Source of the DNA: Chondrosia reniformis
Taxonomy: Eukaryota; Porifera; Demospongiae; Chondrillida; Chondrillidae
Direction of reading: 5' to 3'
Length of the DNA: 64,000 nucleotides
Assembly: GCA_947172415.1 (NCBI GenBank)
Contig: OX359191.1
Coordinates: 8,293,130-8,357,129, forward strand
Part shown: piece after piece, positions 5,297 to 34,935 of the stretch
Position numbering within the stretch: position 1 is the first letter of the stretch
How the letters are laid out: each line of letters opens with the position of its first letter
Made by a program: the position numbers and the translations under genes
The notes under the pieces: model-generated
Seen by the model: the letters and a program-made list of their open reading frames with translations, nothing else
Databases searched by the model: none
What the model was told of the DNA's origin: nothing

Positions 5297-8200
5297 TCAA
5301 ATAACAGTATATACTATGCTGGTTACAAGTTTAACCAACAAATACTGGAGTGATAAATGTGGCCCTGATTGATTGGTTACATTCAAGCATTGCTTCAGCT
5401 GAGGACTACATTCACATGTAAAGGACATACCCAAATCTTTATCAATATGAGTTACTGAATTATGTTCTTTGCCTTTATTGCTACTCCTATGAAGCTGACA
5501 TCTATCACAAGAAAATAGCCAAACTCTAAAAGTTGATGAAACCTTCAGTGCATATTACAACATGCCAGAAAGGATCTACTATATATATATATGTACATAC
5601 ATATATACAGATATCAATCATTGTATACATATCTTGGCAATACTTACCTCCACATAGCAGCAACTAATACTATAATGAACACAATCATGATTAATACACC
5701 CACAGCAACAGGTACAGCAATGACAACAACTGATATTTCCATAGCAGTGGTGGGACCAGCAGATGGTTCTACAAAGTGGTATGTGTAACAAGTGGGGTTA
5801 ACAAACTTTGATACAGTTCTTAGAGCATGCATGAATGTGTATCTTCCATACCAGTTGAAACCTCAACAGTGGATTCTAAATTGGAAGTAGGAATGGAATC
5901 AAATCTCAGACATTCCTTACACTGTATATAGCAGGATTGCTCACCACAATAGGCACCACTATAGCCTGTGGTACACACACAGGTATAATTGTCCTGGCAG
6001 AGTCCTCCATTTTGACATAAAGATGCACATGATCCTATTTGGTATTTGTAACATATATGATGCTATACAAAAACAATTAATACTTCAAGAAGTTACCATA
6101 TCACACTAATACCCACTTGAAACACCATATTGCCTCAGTTCAGAATTAAAGGATCTGGTCACTTGCCACAGCTGTAGTGACTCCTGAACACTTGTGGTTG
6201 TGTTATCATCCAATAGACTTGGTCTTGTGACTATATAGTCAAATATACATTCTGGAAGGTCTCCACAGAGGGACGTTGCTAACTCCTTAGTCTTAGGGTT
6301 GAGGTTAGCACGCAACACAGGGTAAAATGAGGAATCATAAAAATCCGACCACTTTTGATTGGTAAGTACATATGAGAATAGGGAGTCTTCACTTCTGACA
6401 AACCCTAAGTTCAAAGGAAAATAGATAAGTCTAATAATACATGTAGATGTACTGGGGTGAAACTTACATGTTTTAGCAAATGTGCTGAAGATAGTTTCTG
6501 CAGAAGCTCCAACTGAAACAGATTTGTTTTCATACCTAGGTAGCAAGTCATCAATAGTAGTGTCACTATGCGTTCCCATTAGACCTCTTGTCCTTCCTTT
6601 CAGGCTCTCTGGTACAAACAACAGAACCACTGCGAGAAAACCGTGACTCTCTCTTACATCAATTATGGCTCCATTTGGAAATATTACTTTAGTTCTTGTA
6701 CCATCACCAATGACCCTAAGGTTTTCCCAGGCCCTCTCGTCTGCTAGTTCTCTATTTAAATTGACCATACATTTATATTCCAGTGTTACATTCACCATGA
6801 TCATATAGCAGGTAGACTCCACTAGAACTTCAAGTGTATTATTTAGTGAATAAAATTCCACTTTGGGGGACCCTTCTGATTTAACAACAAGTGCAGTCAT
6901 GACAGTAGCTGGAGCAGAGAGGATCTGTTCAAATCTACCCTGTAGAGTAAATGACTCGTCCTCAGTCTCCACAAGGTAGACCTCTCCTTTGAGGTTGACA
7001 GTATAGAAGAGGTGATCAAACGTCATTATATGTGGATCACCGTAGACAGCACCTACATGGAAGAGATGAAACAACAGTGTAAGTTTTGACCAAGAGGATA
7101 AAGACTGACACACTTGATACCTAAAGTATTTTCTTGAAGGAGGGCCTTGCTGTCGTATGCTTCACCATAATCAGGTGGGCGTAATAAGAAAAAGTTATCA
7201 CAGTGTCTTGTCTTACAGCAGAATATATAGGGCAGAACATCCTCAAGGAAATATGAGGTCAAGCTTTCTGTGAAGGGACCACCTGGAGGATACCGTATTA
7301 TTCTTCCAGATCCATCATGATTTCTGCTGGCAAGTAGCTTGCCAGTGTTGTCATAGCAACATACTTTCATATATCCCCTGTCAGGAAAAGTAAATATTAA
7401 GAACATGATTCCGCAATTGAGTTAAAAACTAACTCAGGAGTGAACATTCTTGATTGGTAACAATTGGAAGCACCAGGATAGAAATAAGCAATGTACTGGT
7501 CCTTGTATGTTCCAGCAGTCGCCATTTTATGGAGGACATACTGACTGTTAGCCAACAAAATATCACTTTCTTCCTTAGGACAATAAGGAGCTGAGTCTTT
7601 GATATGCTCCCCTATACTCCACTGAGCACATTGATCACTTAGCTTAAAATCATCTAGTGATGTATAGTAAGCAATTCCACTCCAGATTCTAGAATTAAGA
7701 TTTAGGTCTGGATTCAAATTTGGATGAATTTGAAATATAATTGGGAATATATCGCTTTTACTTCCCAAATCCACAGAAGTATTAACCATTCCACTATTTC
7801 CATAGCTATACCAGAGCACATGTTCGTCAGTAAGTTTCCCTAATGTGGAGTCAAAGGTCCATATCTCTACAGTTATGTCATAGGAACTGGGATCCCATAA
7901 TACAGATGGCAGGATCTCCTTGTTCCATAGCAGCTGAATGCTTTGGCCTTGTTTTATAAGTAGACCCCCCTCTTCAGTAACCATTTCAAAGTCAGAGGCT
8001 TCAAGAAATGGAACTAAAATAAAGATCAGAAAAGCAAAAAGAGGATAACATAACAAGTGAGTGTTTATCCTCAAGTAAGCCAAAAATACTGGAAGATCAT
8101 GCATGAATGTATCTTTGGGATGGTACATCCTTTGACTTTTTGAGTGTTGTCACTGAAGAAGATCCTCAGGGTCGAAACGTTTGACCAAGAAATGAAACCA

Positions 8201-10317
8201 AACTGCGTTTTTAAACGCTCAAAAAGTCAAAGGATGTACCATCCCAAAGATAAGTTTGACGTAGTTAGAAGGAATCCTTATTCTATTATTCTATCACGAA
8301 TGTATATGCTTATTATTTATATTAGGTAAATAGCAGAAGGAAAATAACACATATTTGCCATTCTTACCAGAGTAGAAGTCTTCTGTGAAAGACCATATTA
8401 TTGGACCTTCTTGAAACTGTACATTGATGGGAATATATCCTGCTCTGTTGAGTGAAGGCATTATTGCCAATATTGTGGTTGAACTGATGGGATACACTGA
8501 AGCCTCAATGTTATCAAATGTACAAGTAATATTAAAAGCTAACAAGTTGATATCATCGTCATTCAAGATCTCAACCGAAACAGATTGGCCTCCCAGCTGG
8601 TTCCCATAATTGGGAGTTAGACTCAGTTCTGTGGGCGTGGACAATGGGTGTAACACTAATGTATCAGCATTCCGTTATTACATAAAGAATACCTTTAACA
8701 GAAGTAAAGACCAAACTTCTTGACTTCTCTACTAATGTGATAGAAAAGAGATTCTGAAGCATTATTTGTAAAATAAATGTTAATTCTTTGAAATGAGAAC
8801 ATTACTACAGCTAGCTTACTGTAATTGTTAGTAACGTTTACACAGTGTGAGTTTCCAATATCAAATATCCATTGCCCTATAAGTCCTACATTGCTTGAGA
8901 TTTCAAAGTCAATGGTACTGATATTGTCTTTGCTAGACTCAGGGACCATATAGAAGTCTCTGCCATTCCCTACATCATATCCGACAACTGCAGCTCTTTC
9001 TCCTCCAAATCCTTCACTTCCACCATCAACATCCCCAACAACCCATTCAATACCACCACCTGGATAACTGTATATCACAGCTGCTTCACTTCCATTCGTA
9101 GCATAGACCATATGAAAAGAATTTACCTATTGATGATACAATAATAAGGGCTATTTTGAACTTTTCAGATGTGCTTCACCTAAAATGATATATCTATATA
9201 GTTTCCTTTATCATTACCAGTAGCTATGAATTGGATTATTTATGCCATAATATCTAGAGCATGACAGGTTTCTGGGAAAGTATTATCATCTCTATTCAAA
9301 GAAATATGTAGTAGAATGCTTTAAGTAATAAAATAATAATAATATAAACTACATATATACCTACCTATATTTTAAGGTAGCTATGACTTGACTTACCAGT
9401 TGTTCATTATTTTGACCTTTGAACCCAACTGCACTCCAGACAACAATAAGAGCATATGTAACACTAAAACTGACACCACTCGTACCAAACTCAGCAACAA
9501 ATTTCTCAATGTTTTGTAAGAGTAATAAATCTGAAATACCATTTTCCAAGGAGTTGGGTCGTGCATTCTCCATGACTGCAGTTGTTGCCACTTGTCGATA
9601 ATACACATTACCATAGTATGTACTGTCTGCATCTGCCCAGAAAGGTGCCAAGATGGCAGACCATGGGGAGGGTGGGGTAATAGGAAGCTGGTCAACACTC
9701 CAGGGTAATGGGTACTGGGTAGGTGTCTCCTTAAGAGTTACAAACCCATTTGTACTTATCTAGGAAAGAATGGAGAGGAATACGAAACTCTCATTATCTA
9801 CTATTTATTTCTGTCCCTGATTTATGTAGTTAGTTTTCTAATTATACTTATTCTAAATCGCCTTTTATTTTGACCCTGACCATTATATAGTTACATATAT
9901 ACTACTATGATTCATATATACAACATCCGCGGTGCTGACATCTCTACTCAATTAACAAGGCAGTTTCATTTCTTTGTATCTGCAGTTCATGTAGATTTCG
10001 GTAAGTTTCTTGTATATATGCACGGATTTCCAATCCTCATACAACTTACAAGAAACCAACTACTTCCTGGCATAGACAGCGTGTTAAATCCTTAATCTTA
10101 TTCTTACTTCAATATAGTTGAAGAGCTTGCATTTGAAAGGAATTCCAAAGGGCATCTTCAAAGTCTTAGTGACATCGTCTCCTTTCGGAAGAGACGGATC
10201 AGAATTAAAGGGGAAGCCGAGTAGCTCCTCGATTTCAAGTCCCTTCGCAAAAATCATAGATTTGTCAACGTCTAGTAGCAACAGGAGGATCGAAATTCCT
10301 AGCACGCTGCGTCTCAT
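5297..10317 (-). CDS. NIDO-AMOP-VWD-EGF type I membrane protein (MUC4/SUSD2-like)
   Basis: Eleven exons sum to exactly 1,137 codons (1,136 residues): 10108-10317, 9397-9759, 8820-9126, 8368-8655, 7434-8013, 7121-7377, 6468-7052, 6117-6404, 5852-6034, 5648-5768 and 5297-5525. Order of parts: signal peptide (1-20), NIDO domain (about 30-260; GDDVTKTL, ISTNGFVTL, VYATNGSEAAVIYSYPGG), a TIG-like stretch (about 300-390; LSLTPNYGNQLGGQS), AMOP domain (about 518-660; CAQW, CPKE, YPGASNC, CCYD), VWD domain (about 669-875; GDPHIMTFD, GLMGTHSD), one EGF module (about 962-985), a transmembrane helix (about 1033-1058) and a cytoplasmic tail of about 75 residues. This is the membrane-proximal architecture of MUC4 and resembles SUSD2 and mesh. 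In MUC4 and other mucins the GDPH site is cleaved autocatalytically; the same tetrapeptide is present here. A role in adhesion or epithelial surfaces is inferred. No mucin-type repeats are seen. Confidence 0.85.
8110..8252. repeat. Foldback element with 35-bp perfect inverted arms and hammerhead-like core
   Basis: Arms 8110-8144 and 8218-8252 are exact reverse complements. The 73-bp loop carries CTGAAGA at 8152-8158, then a possible 5-bp stem (GATCC/GGGTC), then GAAAC. This is one base off the hammerhead ribozyme core CTGATGA-stem II-GAAA. The element lies in an intron of the NIDO/AMOP gene and has no coding capacity. It could be a MITE-like foldback element or a retrozyme/Penelope-type remnant. 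Confidence 0.75.
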
Positions 10318-10562: not shown

Positions 10563-19760
<9,198 letters not shown>

Positions 19761-30646: not shown

Positions 30647-30836
30647 TTTAAACAGAAGAGATCCGAAGGTGGTTGACTTGCAGACGAACGGGCGCTTATA
30701 ATAATGCTAATTGGGCTCTAAACGGATAGTGTTGAAATTGAAAAAAAATGGCGGAAAACCAGCCGGAGGAATATACATTAAAGTGATTACTTAGAAAACT
30801 TGTACATTTGTTGTTCTCGTTTCGTATTGTGTAAAT
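30647..30836. promoter_or_regulatory. Shared divergent promoter, ACSL/DNAJC21
   Basis: 190 bp between the two start codons. No specific element is named; the role is inferred from the divergent layout. Confidence 0.5.
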
Positions 30837-33800
30837 ATGCGTTGCTATTACGAAGTATTAGCAGTACCCAGAGATGCCACAGACGAAGAGATAAAAAAAT
30901 CTTACAGAAAACTCGCACTTAAGTATCATCCTGGTTAGTTTTCTGGCGCAATCATTCCTCCTAACTCTTCTTTTAGCTACATTTTAAGAGCTGGTAATTA
31001 AATTACTCATAAGTTATACAGAAAATTATATTATTACACCGACCCTCGTTGTACTTATTTGTCATTGTATTGTATCGTTTATTGATTTACAGTATGTGCA
31101 CCTTTTTGATGCACAGAATTGCTTTTATTGATATTTCAATGTTTAAAATAGCTAATGATACAGCTGCAATTATTTGTTTTTCACCTCATCTGCAGATAAA
31201 AATCCAGAACATTTGGAAGAATGTGTGGAGAAATTCAGGGAAGTCCAGTCAGCATATGATGTGTTAAGCGACCAACAGGAGAGAGCTTGGTAAAGTTGCC
31301 ATGGTTACTGTTGACTGCAGTTATGACACCCTATATGTTGTGTATGCCCAATGGTGAGCTTTACTATTTGAGACCTCCCATGAATCATATTCACGTCTGT
31401 ATCTTAGGAATGCCCTCTTTATGTACCTATTAAAATTGAGGAAATTCTAAACATTCTGTTCACCTACGTAAATATACATATGTACATGTCTTCTACTAGC
31501 TATACGTTGGATACATAATATACTGTAGGCATTTGTGTGTAATACAGCGCATGGTACTTATTAAGTGTGTTGATATTAAACAGTTTGTATGTTTTAGGTA
31601 TGATAAGAATAGGGACAGAATCCTAATGGGAGGTGGGTCTAATATGATAATCTTACAACCACAACTATTTAGATGCTAAAGCTAACTTGCTACAAGGATT
31701 TTATTATATTTAATTAATGCAGCCCACTTCTACAGCACCTATGTAACAATCATTCATGTCATGAGAATACAACTGAGCTTGTTTCATCCAATGAGTGCTT
31801 TTAGTCTACGCCATCATCCCTGTTCATTTAAATATGTTCCAAATAGCTGCACTACATACACAGAGATGATGTAACTGTTATTCTTCTGTAGTTGGTTCAG
31901 ACTTTACAGACGAGAGTATTGATGTAATGCCGTACTTCAATCCCTCCATGTACCGTGGGTTTGGAGATGATGCGCAGGTATGTACGTACTTGGCAGTGTA
32001 AGGGACAAATTTCCTCAATCAAGGGTGTAGAGTTTTATATCGCAATTTGATACCTGTCATGTCCTATCTTTCCTATCAATTTGATACATGTCATGTCCTA
32101 TCTTTCCTATCAATTTGATACCTGTCATGTCCTATCTTTCCTATCGATTTGATACCTGTCATGTCCTATTTTTCCTATCAATTTGATACATTTGATACAT
32201 GTACGTAATGATGAATGTGTAGGGTTTCTATGCCATATATGGAGATCTCTTTCAGAAGATCTCCACTGAAGACAAGAAGTACTTAGAACCAGAGGGAGAG
32301 GAGTATCCACAATTTGGTGAGAGCTCTGATTTAATCTTTCTTTTAATATGCACTTCACTAAAACTGCATAAATTGGATCGAAAAACCAATTTTAAGAGAT
32401 TTGTTTAATTCTATCTTCCTTTTTCGGTGTTTGAAAGTTTACTTTGTTTTATTGTTTAGTATTATGTTGAATTGTGTGAGTGAACACTGTTATTCTGCCA
32501 TTCTACTTCGTAGGCAACTCTAAGAGTGCTTATGATGAAGTAGTTCACTTATTTTATGGGTTTTGGCAGAGCTATTCCACACCTAAACCTTACTACTGGT
32601 TGGATAAGTATGACATTAAGGACGCCCCCAACAGGAAAGTTCAAAGAATGATGGAAAAGGAGAATAAAAAAATCAGAGAGGCAGCCAAGAAACAAAGAAA
32701 TGAGGTCATCCGAGTAAGCAGTTTGAAATTCTGGTTGAGAACCTAATGTTAGAAGTTTTTATGTGTATTATAGCAACTTTGTAAGTTTGTGAGGAAGAGA
32801 GACAAGCGTGTTCACGCTTACAAGGTGAGAATGGCCAATGAGCATGGCAATAGGCTTAAGTGGAATACTTATGAGAATCCTTATCTCTCTGCATGAATGT
32901 GCAAATCATGGTAGTTATGATACTTGTAATGTGATCTTCCTCTTAAGGAAGCACTGCAAGAGAAGGATAAAGAGAGAAAACATTTGGTGGAACAGAAGAG
33001 AAAGGAGGACCTGAAAAAGAGGGCCGAGTGGGTTCTGGCATATTTACTAGCTCCTATGTATGTAGCTAATCAGTTCCTGACCAGCTACGTATTTCTTGTT
33101 GTGCATGTTATATAGCTACATGTATGTGTATGTATATGTGAGATCAGTGGATTTCATATGAGCAATCCTTTTGCTGATGAAGACCTTTGTGGTTGAAACG
33201 TTCAATAATCTGTGTAAAATTACTGTTGCTGATGCTCATATGAAATCCACTGGTCATATTATGAAGGCAACAAACAAGCATTTCATATGTATGTGTGAAT
33301 ATTTAAACAATGTGGAAGGCTGTGTTGTATGATGTGGATAATCACTAGTGGTTCATGTATGGCATATGCAGAGCAATGGCCTGTTATCAGGAGCAAGAAT
33401 GGGAGAAGACAGAGGCACTTGAAAAAGTGGGGACAATTCTTACTTATTGACATGTGTTAGTAATTCAATATTTTCTGCATGCCATACCTTATAGGACTAC
33501 AATATGCTGGAGCAAGCCATTGATAGTGAATATGGGGAAGATCTCACTGATAATAGTGGTAAGATTTGTGGGCATTGGATAGGTACAACATACGTAGGTA
33601 CAGCATAGGTACAACATAGGTACAGCATAGGTACAACATAGGTACAGCATAGGTACAGCATAGGTACAACATAGGTACAGCATAGGTACAACATAGGTAC
33701 AGCATACGTAGGTACAGCATAGGTACAGCATAGGTACAGCATAGGTACAGCATAGGTACAGCATAGGTACAGCATAGGTACAGCATAGGTACAACATAGG

Positions 33801-34935
33801 TACAGCATAGGTACAGCATAGGTACAGCATAGGTACAACATAGGTACAGCATACGTAGGTACAACATAGGTACAGCATACGTAGGTACAGCATAGGTACA
33901 GCATAGGTACAGCATAGGTACAGCATAGGTACAGCATAGGTACAGCATAGGTACAGCATAGGTACAACATAGGTACAGCATAGGTACAGCATAGGTACAG
34001 CATAGGTACAGCATAGGTACAGCATAGGTACAACATAGGTACAGCATAGGTACAGCATAGGTACAGCATAGGTACAGCATAGGTACAACATAGGTACAGC
34101 ATAGGTACAGCATAGGTACAACATAGGTACAGCATAGGTACAACATAGGTACAACATAGGTACAACATAGGTACAACATAGGTACAGCATAGGTACAGCA
34201 TAGGTACAGCATACGTAGGTACAACATAGGTACAGCATAGGTACAGCATAGGTACAGCATAGGTACAGCATAGGTACAGCATAGGTACAACATAGGTACA
34301 GCATAGGTACAGCATAGGTACAGCCTACGTTAGCTCATGGTATGTTGTGAGTGTATAACAATGTACCTATTATTCTCGCCAATTTCAAAACTGTTGTTAA
34401 ATTAGGTAGAGAAGCGTTTCTATGTTCACTTTAATGCAGTACACTTGTTAGTTTATAGAACTGCTAGATTTACGTATATATGTATCTCTCATAACTGGAA
34501 TAGGAAGTGGACACTACTGTGAAGCTTGTAGCAAGTTCTTTAAGACAGAGAAATCGTGAGTTTAGAATGTGTTGTTGAAAATATTGACAAATACCTAAAT
34601 TTGACCAGTAGCCTAGCAACTGACAATCTACACATATTTTACAGCTCCAAACTTAACTCAAATCCCTTTAAACTTACCGATTGCTGAAGTATATACAAAT
34701 ATATACATGTCCTGAGTACATATGTGCAACATGTACGTATGTATGTAGGTATTTAAACCACACAAAATCAAAGAAACACAAGGAGAAGGAATATTACTTT
34801 CGATTGAGCCTACAAGAACTTACCAACCTTGAAGAGGACAGTTTTGATGCTCAAGATCTTATTGCAGAGAGAGATAAACAATCTTCTTCCAAAGTTGAGA
34901 GCATCCTAGAAGATAATGTAACTGACATCACATGA
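30837..34935 (+). CDS. DNAJC21: DnaJ co-chaperone DNAJC21 (Jjj1)
   Basis: J-domain protein that, with HSP70, helps cytoplasmic 60S maturation and export-factor recycling. About 12 exons. Exon 1 ([21 protein letters not shown]) ends inside the HPD motif, which is completed across the first intron (YHP|DKNPEH). Then [56 protein letters not shown], and [21 protein letters not shown] followed by a charged coiled-coil. One U1-like C2H2 zinc finger ([15 protein letters not shown]...NHTKSKKH) is encoded by the last two exons. All of these match human DNAJC21. The protein ends about 50 residues after this finger and lacks the long acidic region and second zinc finger of human DNAJC21 (531 residues). 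A missed 3' exon is possible, but the stop at 34933-34935 is in a well-formed last exon. Introns hold a 34-bp array, a foldback element and a large 11-bp minisatellite. Confidence 0.92.
32043..32195. repeat. 34-bp tandem repeat, 4.5 copies
   Basis: Unit starts at 32043, 32077, 32111, 32145 and 32179 (caatttgatacctgtcatgt then cctatctttcctat), nearly identical. Intron of DNAJC21. Confidence 0.95.
33145..33252 (+). repeat. Foldback element with hammerhead-type core
   Basis: Perfect 20-bp arms at 33145-33164 and 33233-33252 (cagtggatttcatatgagca and its reverse complement), extended to 23 bp with one mismatch. At the apex is CTGATGA (33174-33180), a short hairpin (GACC...GGTT) and GAAAC (33195-33199), then GTTC. 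This matches the strictly conserved hammerhead core. It lies in a DNAJC21 intron, in the sense orientation. Confidence 0.75.
33582..34329. repeat. 11-bp minisatellite, about 66 copies
   Basis: About 750 bp of ggtacagcata and ggtacaacata units, with a few 15-bp units carrying an extra cgta. It lies in the DNAJC21 intron before the zinc-finger exons. The minus strand has no stops in any frame through the array, giving three spurious long frames. Confidence 0.95.

Follow-up and report, generated by a model that had tools for sequence, protein, structure and literature searches.

Minimal type I hammerhead ribozymes without helix III are known from the pLTRs of Penelope-like elements (PLEs) and may cleave as dimers; we follow here two reviews (PMC7761336, PMC6155905), through which we also refer to the original work by Cervera and De la Pena 2014 and Lunse et al. 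2017. For the Penelope elements of Adineta vaga, PMC3846280 describes inverted pLTRs, one of which bears a 31-bp tail. In Poseidon of Anolis carolinensis (PAc), the tail is the stretch between two reverse transcription (RT) start sites, and the protein cuts and extends both DNA strands. Cleavage by the Anolis ribozyme was seen only in the presence of PLE protein, and insertion in vitro was unchanged when the ribozyme had been mutated (PMC11167929).

We analysed a 64,000-nt stretch of DNA from Chondrosia reniformis (contig OX359191.1; hereafter, the window) in the context of the genome, comprising 117,379,552 bases on 15 contigs. An insertion of ~145 bp within an intron very probably represents a 5'-truncated, two-ended PLE pLTR insertion. 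With equally high confidence, we read it as two inverted pLTR pieces of an endonuclease-containing PLE, namely a longer one in sense orientation, which carries a minimal type I hammerhead, and a short inverted one from the same pLTR end. The element is of a known kind and a new member in the sponge C. reniformis. It shares with the PLE motifs covered in the two reviews (PMC7761336, PMC6155905) the succession of CTGATGA, helix II and GAAAC, the lack of helix III, the many dispersed copies and the location in a pLTR, and differs from them in its sponge host and in being a solitary copy. A literature search, partial in coverage, returned no title on PLE hammerheads in sponges.

The intronic insertion and its hammerhead core

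Pfam matched two of the four host frames submitted, one to DnaJ (30795-30938, E 3.6e-13) and one to the ZUO1-like ZHD (32480-32746, E 1.6e-12); the frame adjoining the element (32930-33115) gave no Pfam match. This DnaJ/zuotin-type gene lies on the same strand as the hammerhead. The earlier note on this DNA had placed the motif in the sense strand of a DNAJC21 intron. The strand assignment holds and the intron is placed by eye; the gene may be DNAJC21/JJJ1, a name that fits its DnaJ and zuotin-homology domains.

Read directly, the plus strand at 33174-33202 is CTGATGA-A-GACC-TTTGT-GGTT-GAAACGTT. The core strand CTGATGA (33174-33180) is followed by an extra A (33181), as is usual for PLE hammerhead motifs ahead of helix II. 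Helix II and its loop comprise GACC (33182-33185), TTTGT (33186-33190) and GGTT (33191-33194); the helix is 4 bp long, with a G-U as the first pair in this copy, and its assignment draws on covariation in sets of 26 and 50 distinct genomic sequences. The closing segment GAAACGTT (33195-33202) consists of the core GAAA and a self-complementary ACGT in the place of helix III. A model built from the 26 sequences, none of which has the loop of the window subfamily (model R1), matches 33174-33201 with 38.7 bits (E 2.5e-7). On the 5' side of the core, TTG (33171-33173) can pair with CAA (33203-33205) as helix I. This helix is continuous over only 3 bp and varies among copies: its first pair, G-C here, is C-G in a PLE copy of locus L043 and missing from the inverted copy that lies upstream in L038.

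GAAAC runs directly into GTT, leaving no room for helix III. Where the earlier note saw a very short stem III, this helix is absent rather than short, and the motif is a type I hammerhead of the minimal kind, lacking helix III. The ACGT could form such a helix only between two copies. By the NUH rule for hammerheads, cleavage is predicted after position 33202.

The core lies, just as the earlier note described it (CTGATGA, a short hairpin and GAAAC), inside inverted arms that are perfectly complementary over 20 bp (33145-33164 and 33233-33252). An inverted-repeat search extends them to 33142-33164 and 33233-33255 (23 nt, 96%).

Sibling copies, the link to Penelope-like elements and the two ends

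A 201-base query had at least 59 matching stretches in the genome, counting the query itself and inverted pieces; of 228 candidates, 40 were scored. The earlier note had pointed to sibling copies as a check on the core, and they speak for it: both CTGATGA and GAAA are kept in the element core of 12 of the 20 fetched siblings (L009-L028), and the independently built model R1 matches the core in 19 of them at E ≤ 0.01. GAAA is changed in seven siblings, for instance within GTCAAAA or GTCGAAG, and the core of L024, the one copy missed by R1, is cut. Two longer siblings, L011 and L015, carry upstream pLTR sequence with a TATA-like box in place of the left arm, the box of L015 standing 42 nt before the core.

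Of 38 GIY-YIG matches in the genome, we examined the ten readable loci (L037-L046). Four of them (L038, L040, L041 and L044) show an R1 match at E<0.01 on the same strand, located 93-249 nt downstream of the frame or the GIY-YIG match; in L044 it covers model positions 7-27 only. A weak downstream match was found in L045 (E 0.034) and a decayed downstream remnant, by eye only, in L043 and L046; the remaining three loci (L037, L039 and L042) have no downstream hammerhead. An inverted hammerhead, whole or in part, precedes the frame in four of the ten (L038, L043, L044 and L046). The single frame of L046 encodes RVT_1 (E 1.2e-6; 28.8 bits against a curated cut-off of 29.6) followed by GIY-YIG (25.2 bits, cut-off 22.6), and the other three GIY-YIG-locus frames scanned matched GIY-YIG only.

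In L041, the core follows the GIY-YIG match by 228 nt, with a TATA-like box 38 nt before the core and the end region GAACGCAACAAAAACCCTTATCACTTTATA after it. The pLTRs of L015 and L041 are colinear from the TATA-like box through the hammerhead to the tail (alignment score 154 versus 43.0 for shuffled sequences, sd 6.3, z 17.6), and L015 likewise aligns with L038 (119 versus 41.0, sd 6.0). TATA-like box and core are thus common to the longer siblings and the PLE loci L038 and L041, and the end region is found in L041 as well. The window copy is truncated just upstream of the core and has neither promoter nor frame. A full-length parent of exactly this subfamily was not recovered, the GIY-YIG elements found being relatives.

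Two pLTR pieces account for the insertion. The left arm is a short piece from the 3' end of the pLTR in inverted orientation (33142-33164, minus strand, reference positions 91-68); its outer edge lies near a proximal site, A. A sense, 5'-truncated pLTR follows (33166-33286, plus strand; reference positions 3-122, where it is 92.5% identical to copy L003), with its right edge near a distal site, B. This sense piece contains the right arm (33233-33255), complementary to the left one. Beyond the right arm, and at the right end only, lies the AC-rich stretch between sites A and B (33256-33286, GCAACAAACAAGC), which we delimited by edge mapping and which corresponds to the PLE tail described in PMC11167929 and PMC3846280. 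The insertion is flanked by a possible target-site duplication, ATGTATATGTGA (33130-33141) on the left and ATGTATGTGTGA (33287-33298) on the right, which agree at 11 of 12 positions in low-complexity, TATG-rich sequence. Over 14 copies, the own flanks of each insertion matched with a total of 104 versus a permuted mean of 81.6 (0 of 10000 permutations), local composition also being shared within a locus.

To compare ends, we used one natural copy, L003, as a ruler. Outer edges cluster in two ranges, A at 85-102 and B at 122-133; site A is centred on ...CTGATCTTAT at ruler position 94 and site B on ...CATTTCAT at 127, the least clear A edge being the left one of L025 (102). Thirteen copies were scored: B right with A left in seven, A right with B left in four, A/A in two and B/B in none (Fisher p 0.021; the classes were defined after the data had been seen, and the p values are descriptive). 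The window copy, with its left edge in the A range and its right edge in the B range, has the A/B configuration seen in 11 of the 13. The count left out L022, L023 and L028, as duplicates of the L018 locus; L010, L011, L015, the first copy of L021, and L058, in which no left arm was found; and L014, whose left arm was not found by BLAST and which reads B/A by eye. Likewise excluded were L053, which reads B/B with a tail at both ends (p 0.091 when included), and L027, where the outer edge of the inverted piece lies at 59, at neither site. Four further suggested A/B pairs (C10:617 kb, C4:6597 kb, C5:1100 kb and C4:6675 kb) were not counted.

The earlier note had taken the locus for a foldback element. 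Spelled out, a transposase would mobilise a nonautonomous, MITE-like DNA element through its terminal inverted repeats, represented by the 20-bp arms, and the core would sit at the apex, as the perfect arms around the core and a second foldback in the window (8110-8252, with 39-nt arms) might suggest. We consider this very improbable. Arm length and position differ between copies, as do the inner junctions; the left arm is absent in some, with upstream pLTR sequence in its place in L011 and L015; the outer edges fall on different places of the sequence in 11 of the 13 scored copies; and the longer sibling is homologous to PLE pLTRs. Going by these junctions, the arms represent an inverted piece of the pLTR, as is typical when PLEs insert, and not the fixed ends of a foldback transposon. 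What looks like a ribozyme at the tip of a foldback is an ordinary scar of PLE insertion.

A two-ended PLE insertion could have arisen as follows. The RNA of a parent PLE would be transcribed from the TATA-like box in the pLTR and copied by the PLE protein at an AT-rich target. Reverse transcription would start at internal RNA sites on both target strands and run a short way, and joining of the two cDNA ends would yield an inverted repeat that bears a tail on one side. The window copy would be such a short product, left without promoter or frame. The hammerhead would belong to the parent, in which helix III of a double hammerhead could form by ACGU/ACGU pairing between two tandem pLTRs.

Several features of this arrangement have counterparts in Adineta vaga. 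According to PMC3846280, its Penelope elements also have an inverted pLTR at the 5' side that is shorter than the direct one, a tail on one inverted pLTR, a pLTR with a TATA box, solo pLTRs and, as is possible for the window copy, short target duplications; they differ from the present case, where only frameless pLTR pieces are seen and the parent subfamily was not found whole. PAc resembles the sponge copies in its AC-rich RT start region and in having the tail between two RT start sites (PMC11167929). RT starts 111-118 bp into the frame of PAc, and site B lies ~116 nt from the ATG of CTGATGA, a putative start (ruler 12 and 127). PAc, unlike the sponge copies, has been characterised biochemically (PMC11167929).

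The edge clustering invites a rule that we put forward as a long shot: each PLE insertion would use site A on one target strand and site B, separated from A by ~33 nt of the RNA, on the other. Just as speculatively, the two polymerases of a dimer can be pictured as starting next to each other, either on a single RNA or on a pair of RNAs joined by the ACGU kissing helix of their hammerheads. We rate the odds low because L053, as a B/B copy, raises the Fisher p from 0.021 to 0.091 and because the L027 edge lies at neither site. If the rule were true, the hammerhead dimer would serve less to cleave RNA than to help prepare two-ended integration. This sponge set of very short insertions, with both ends readable, should be useful for testing PLE integration, and for asking why PLEs keep a hammerhead seemingly unable to work alone.

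Predicted activity of the lone hammerhead and its relation to canonical hammerheads

Could the intronic copy have been put to use by its host? Its arms would then clamp the sides of helix I, and the lone copy would cleave and regulate the DNAJC21-like transcript in cis. The sense orientation and the intact core letters fit such a role, as do the strongly folding arms: the RNA fold of 33142-33255 is better than that of shuffled sequences (z -6.7, 0 of 200), the arms being the main source of this stability. The same minimum-energy fold, however, ties the GA of CTGATGA to upstream letters, and ACGT gives no helix III within one copy. Moreover, siblings look free to decay, the core being no longer intact in eight of 20. 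Co-option thus strikes us as highly unlikely. We favour a PLE-derived passenger: the hammerhead of the lone intronic copy most likely undergoes little or no cis cleavage, strong self-cleavage being improbable because helix III is lacking, as judged from the literature. The earlier note had envisaged a mobile element that self-cleaves and spreads; a copy that is 5'-truncated, frameless and devoid of helix III does not look able to spread alone. For the role of the hammerhead in the parent PLE, the Anolis ribozyme offers a comparison: it cleaved only with PLE protein, and its mutation left insertion in vitro unaffected.

The covariance check suggested in the earlier note came back empty with the published families. 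No Rfam 15 hammerhead family matched the whole window at the gathering score or the interval 32900-33500 at E ≤ 10, so the window copy does not reach the covariance cut-off of canonical hammerheads (RF00163 and kin), likely because no helix III follows GAAAC. Seven weak Rfam matches to microRNA and snoRNA models lay far under their own cut-offs and were set aside as noise. On contig C1, none of the five listed RF00163 matches coincides with the 79 listed motif places. Rfam hammerhead models can thus miss this class, as they missed the window copy and as the disjoint places listed for contig C1 illustrate.

A pattern search gave a different picture. The expression CTGATGAAGN{8,16}GAAACGT matched 874 places in the 117-Mb genome (441+433 on the two strands) versus 1 (0+1) for the backwards control pattern, and a narrower version matched 174+169 versus 0+0. 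Helix II covaries across these places. We collected the 50 distinct sequences among the first 100 of the 874 motif places; a subset of 26 of them, none with the loop of the window subfamily, served for model R1 and for the covariation test. In the 50 sequences, the four helix II positions are paired in 49, 47, 41 and 44 cases, summing to 181 versus 169.5 when shuffled (0 of 5000), whereas the register without the extra A pairs in only 27, 47, 6 and 43. In the 26 sequences, three of five measures exceeded all 500 shuffles: the share of paired cells (88.5% versus 79.6%, 0/500), the cells changed on both sides (12 versus 4.0, 0/500) and the covariation score (0.464 versus 0.296, 0/500), and this signal disappears when the pairing partner is slid. 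The other two did not, namely pairs with a double change (2 versus 1.9, reached by 417 of 500 shuffles) and further pair types (7 versus 5.8, reached by 60 of 500).

The earlier note had also named retrozymes among the hosts of such cores. A retrozyme would be a canonical type I hammerhead retroelement spreading through circular RNA. The window copy has a type I core and is noncoding, and canonical RF00163 hammerheads are present in the genome, with four direct pairs 352-355 nt apart among the listed matches. Of 11921 RF00163 candidates in the genome, 73 were scored, and 51 of the 65 listed matches exceeded the cut-off; none of these matches is the window copy. It has neither helix III nor a tandem partner within the stretch read, and no tandem array with a canonical helix III appeared in the loci fetched. 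Conversely, model R1 scores only 15-18 bits at the core of five of eight fetched RF00163 loci (L029, L030, L033, L034 and L035), compared to 38.7 for the window copy, and has no core match at E ≤ 1 in the other three. Metazoan retrozymes, as presented in PMC7229834, share the type I architecture and, unlike the window copy, have helix III and reach the covariance cut-off. With the canonical hammerheads forming a separate family in this genome, we give the retrozyme reading of the window copy hardly any weight.

A random occurrence of CTGATGA...GAAAC in the AT-rich intron, inside a foldback that is noise and unrelated to it, would agree with the missing Rfam hammerhead match at E ≤ 10, and is the least credible of all given at least 59 matching stretches (the query itself included), 874 motif copies versus one for the control, helix II covariation and PLE linkage. 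The same counts, covariation and linkage bear out the core of the earlier proposal, a type I hammerhead like those of Penelope elements, borne by a noncoding, dispersed copy of a retroelement.

Further elements in the window and the genome

Positions 8110-8252 of the window hold a second two-ended PLE pLTR insertion, whose 39-nt arms show 97% identity. It contains a decayed core at 8153 (CTGAAGA), which R1 scores at 30.3 bits, and in its 3' part it matches what follows the RT/GIY-YIG frame in L046 (z 19). On the minus strand at 13532-13552, a partial minimal-hammerhead remnant scores 19.5 bits over model positions 7-27; no long arms were found there.

A search with the upstream segment led to large elements at L047-L057 that have captured this PLE pLTR, now decayed; most of these loci hold an old fragment of it with a decayed core. 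Pfam detected Helitron_like_N in L049 (E 2.4e-26) and DUF6570 in both L049 and L054. These elements, with a Helitron-type frame where checked (L049), are not the parent.

The RF00163 matches, including the fetched loci L029-L036, make up a canonical type I family, with one of its four direct pairs below the cut-off. Its members read GAAAC-AGCT-GTC with a palindromic loop, similar to the amphibian motifs in PMC7229834, and the family looks like sponge retrozymes.

On contig C6, at about 1052-1125 kb, four similar copies (L018, L022, L023 and L028) are spaced 23-25 kb apart and have flanks in common; by eye, a segment with one PLE insertion in it has been duplicated in tandem. In the window copy, the reading frame containing the ATG of CTGATGA stays open over 33162-33332 (56 aa); we make no claim of a coding role for it, and by eye the matching frame of L041 stops early. 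Downstream of the insertion, three overlapping minus-strand frames of one repeat span 33489-34334, by eye a simple tandem repeat.
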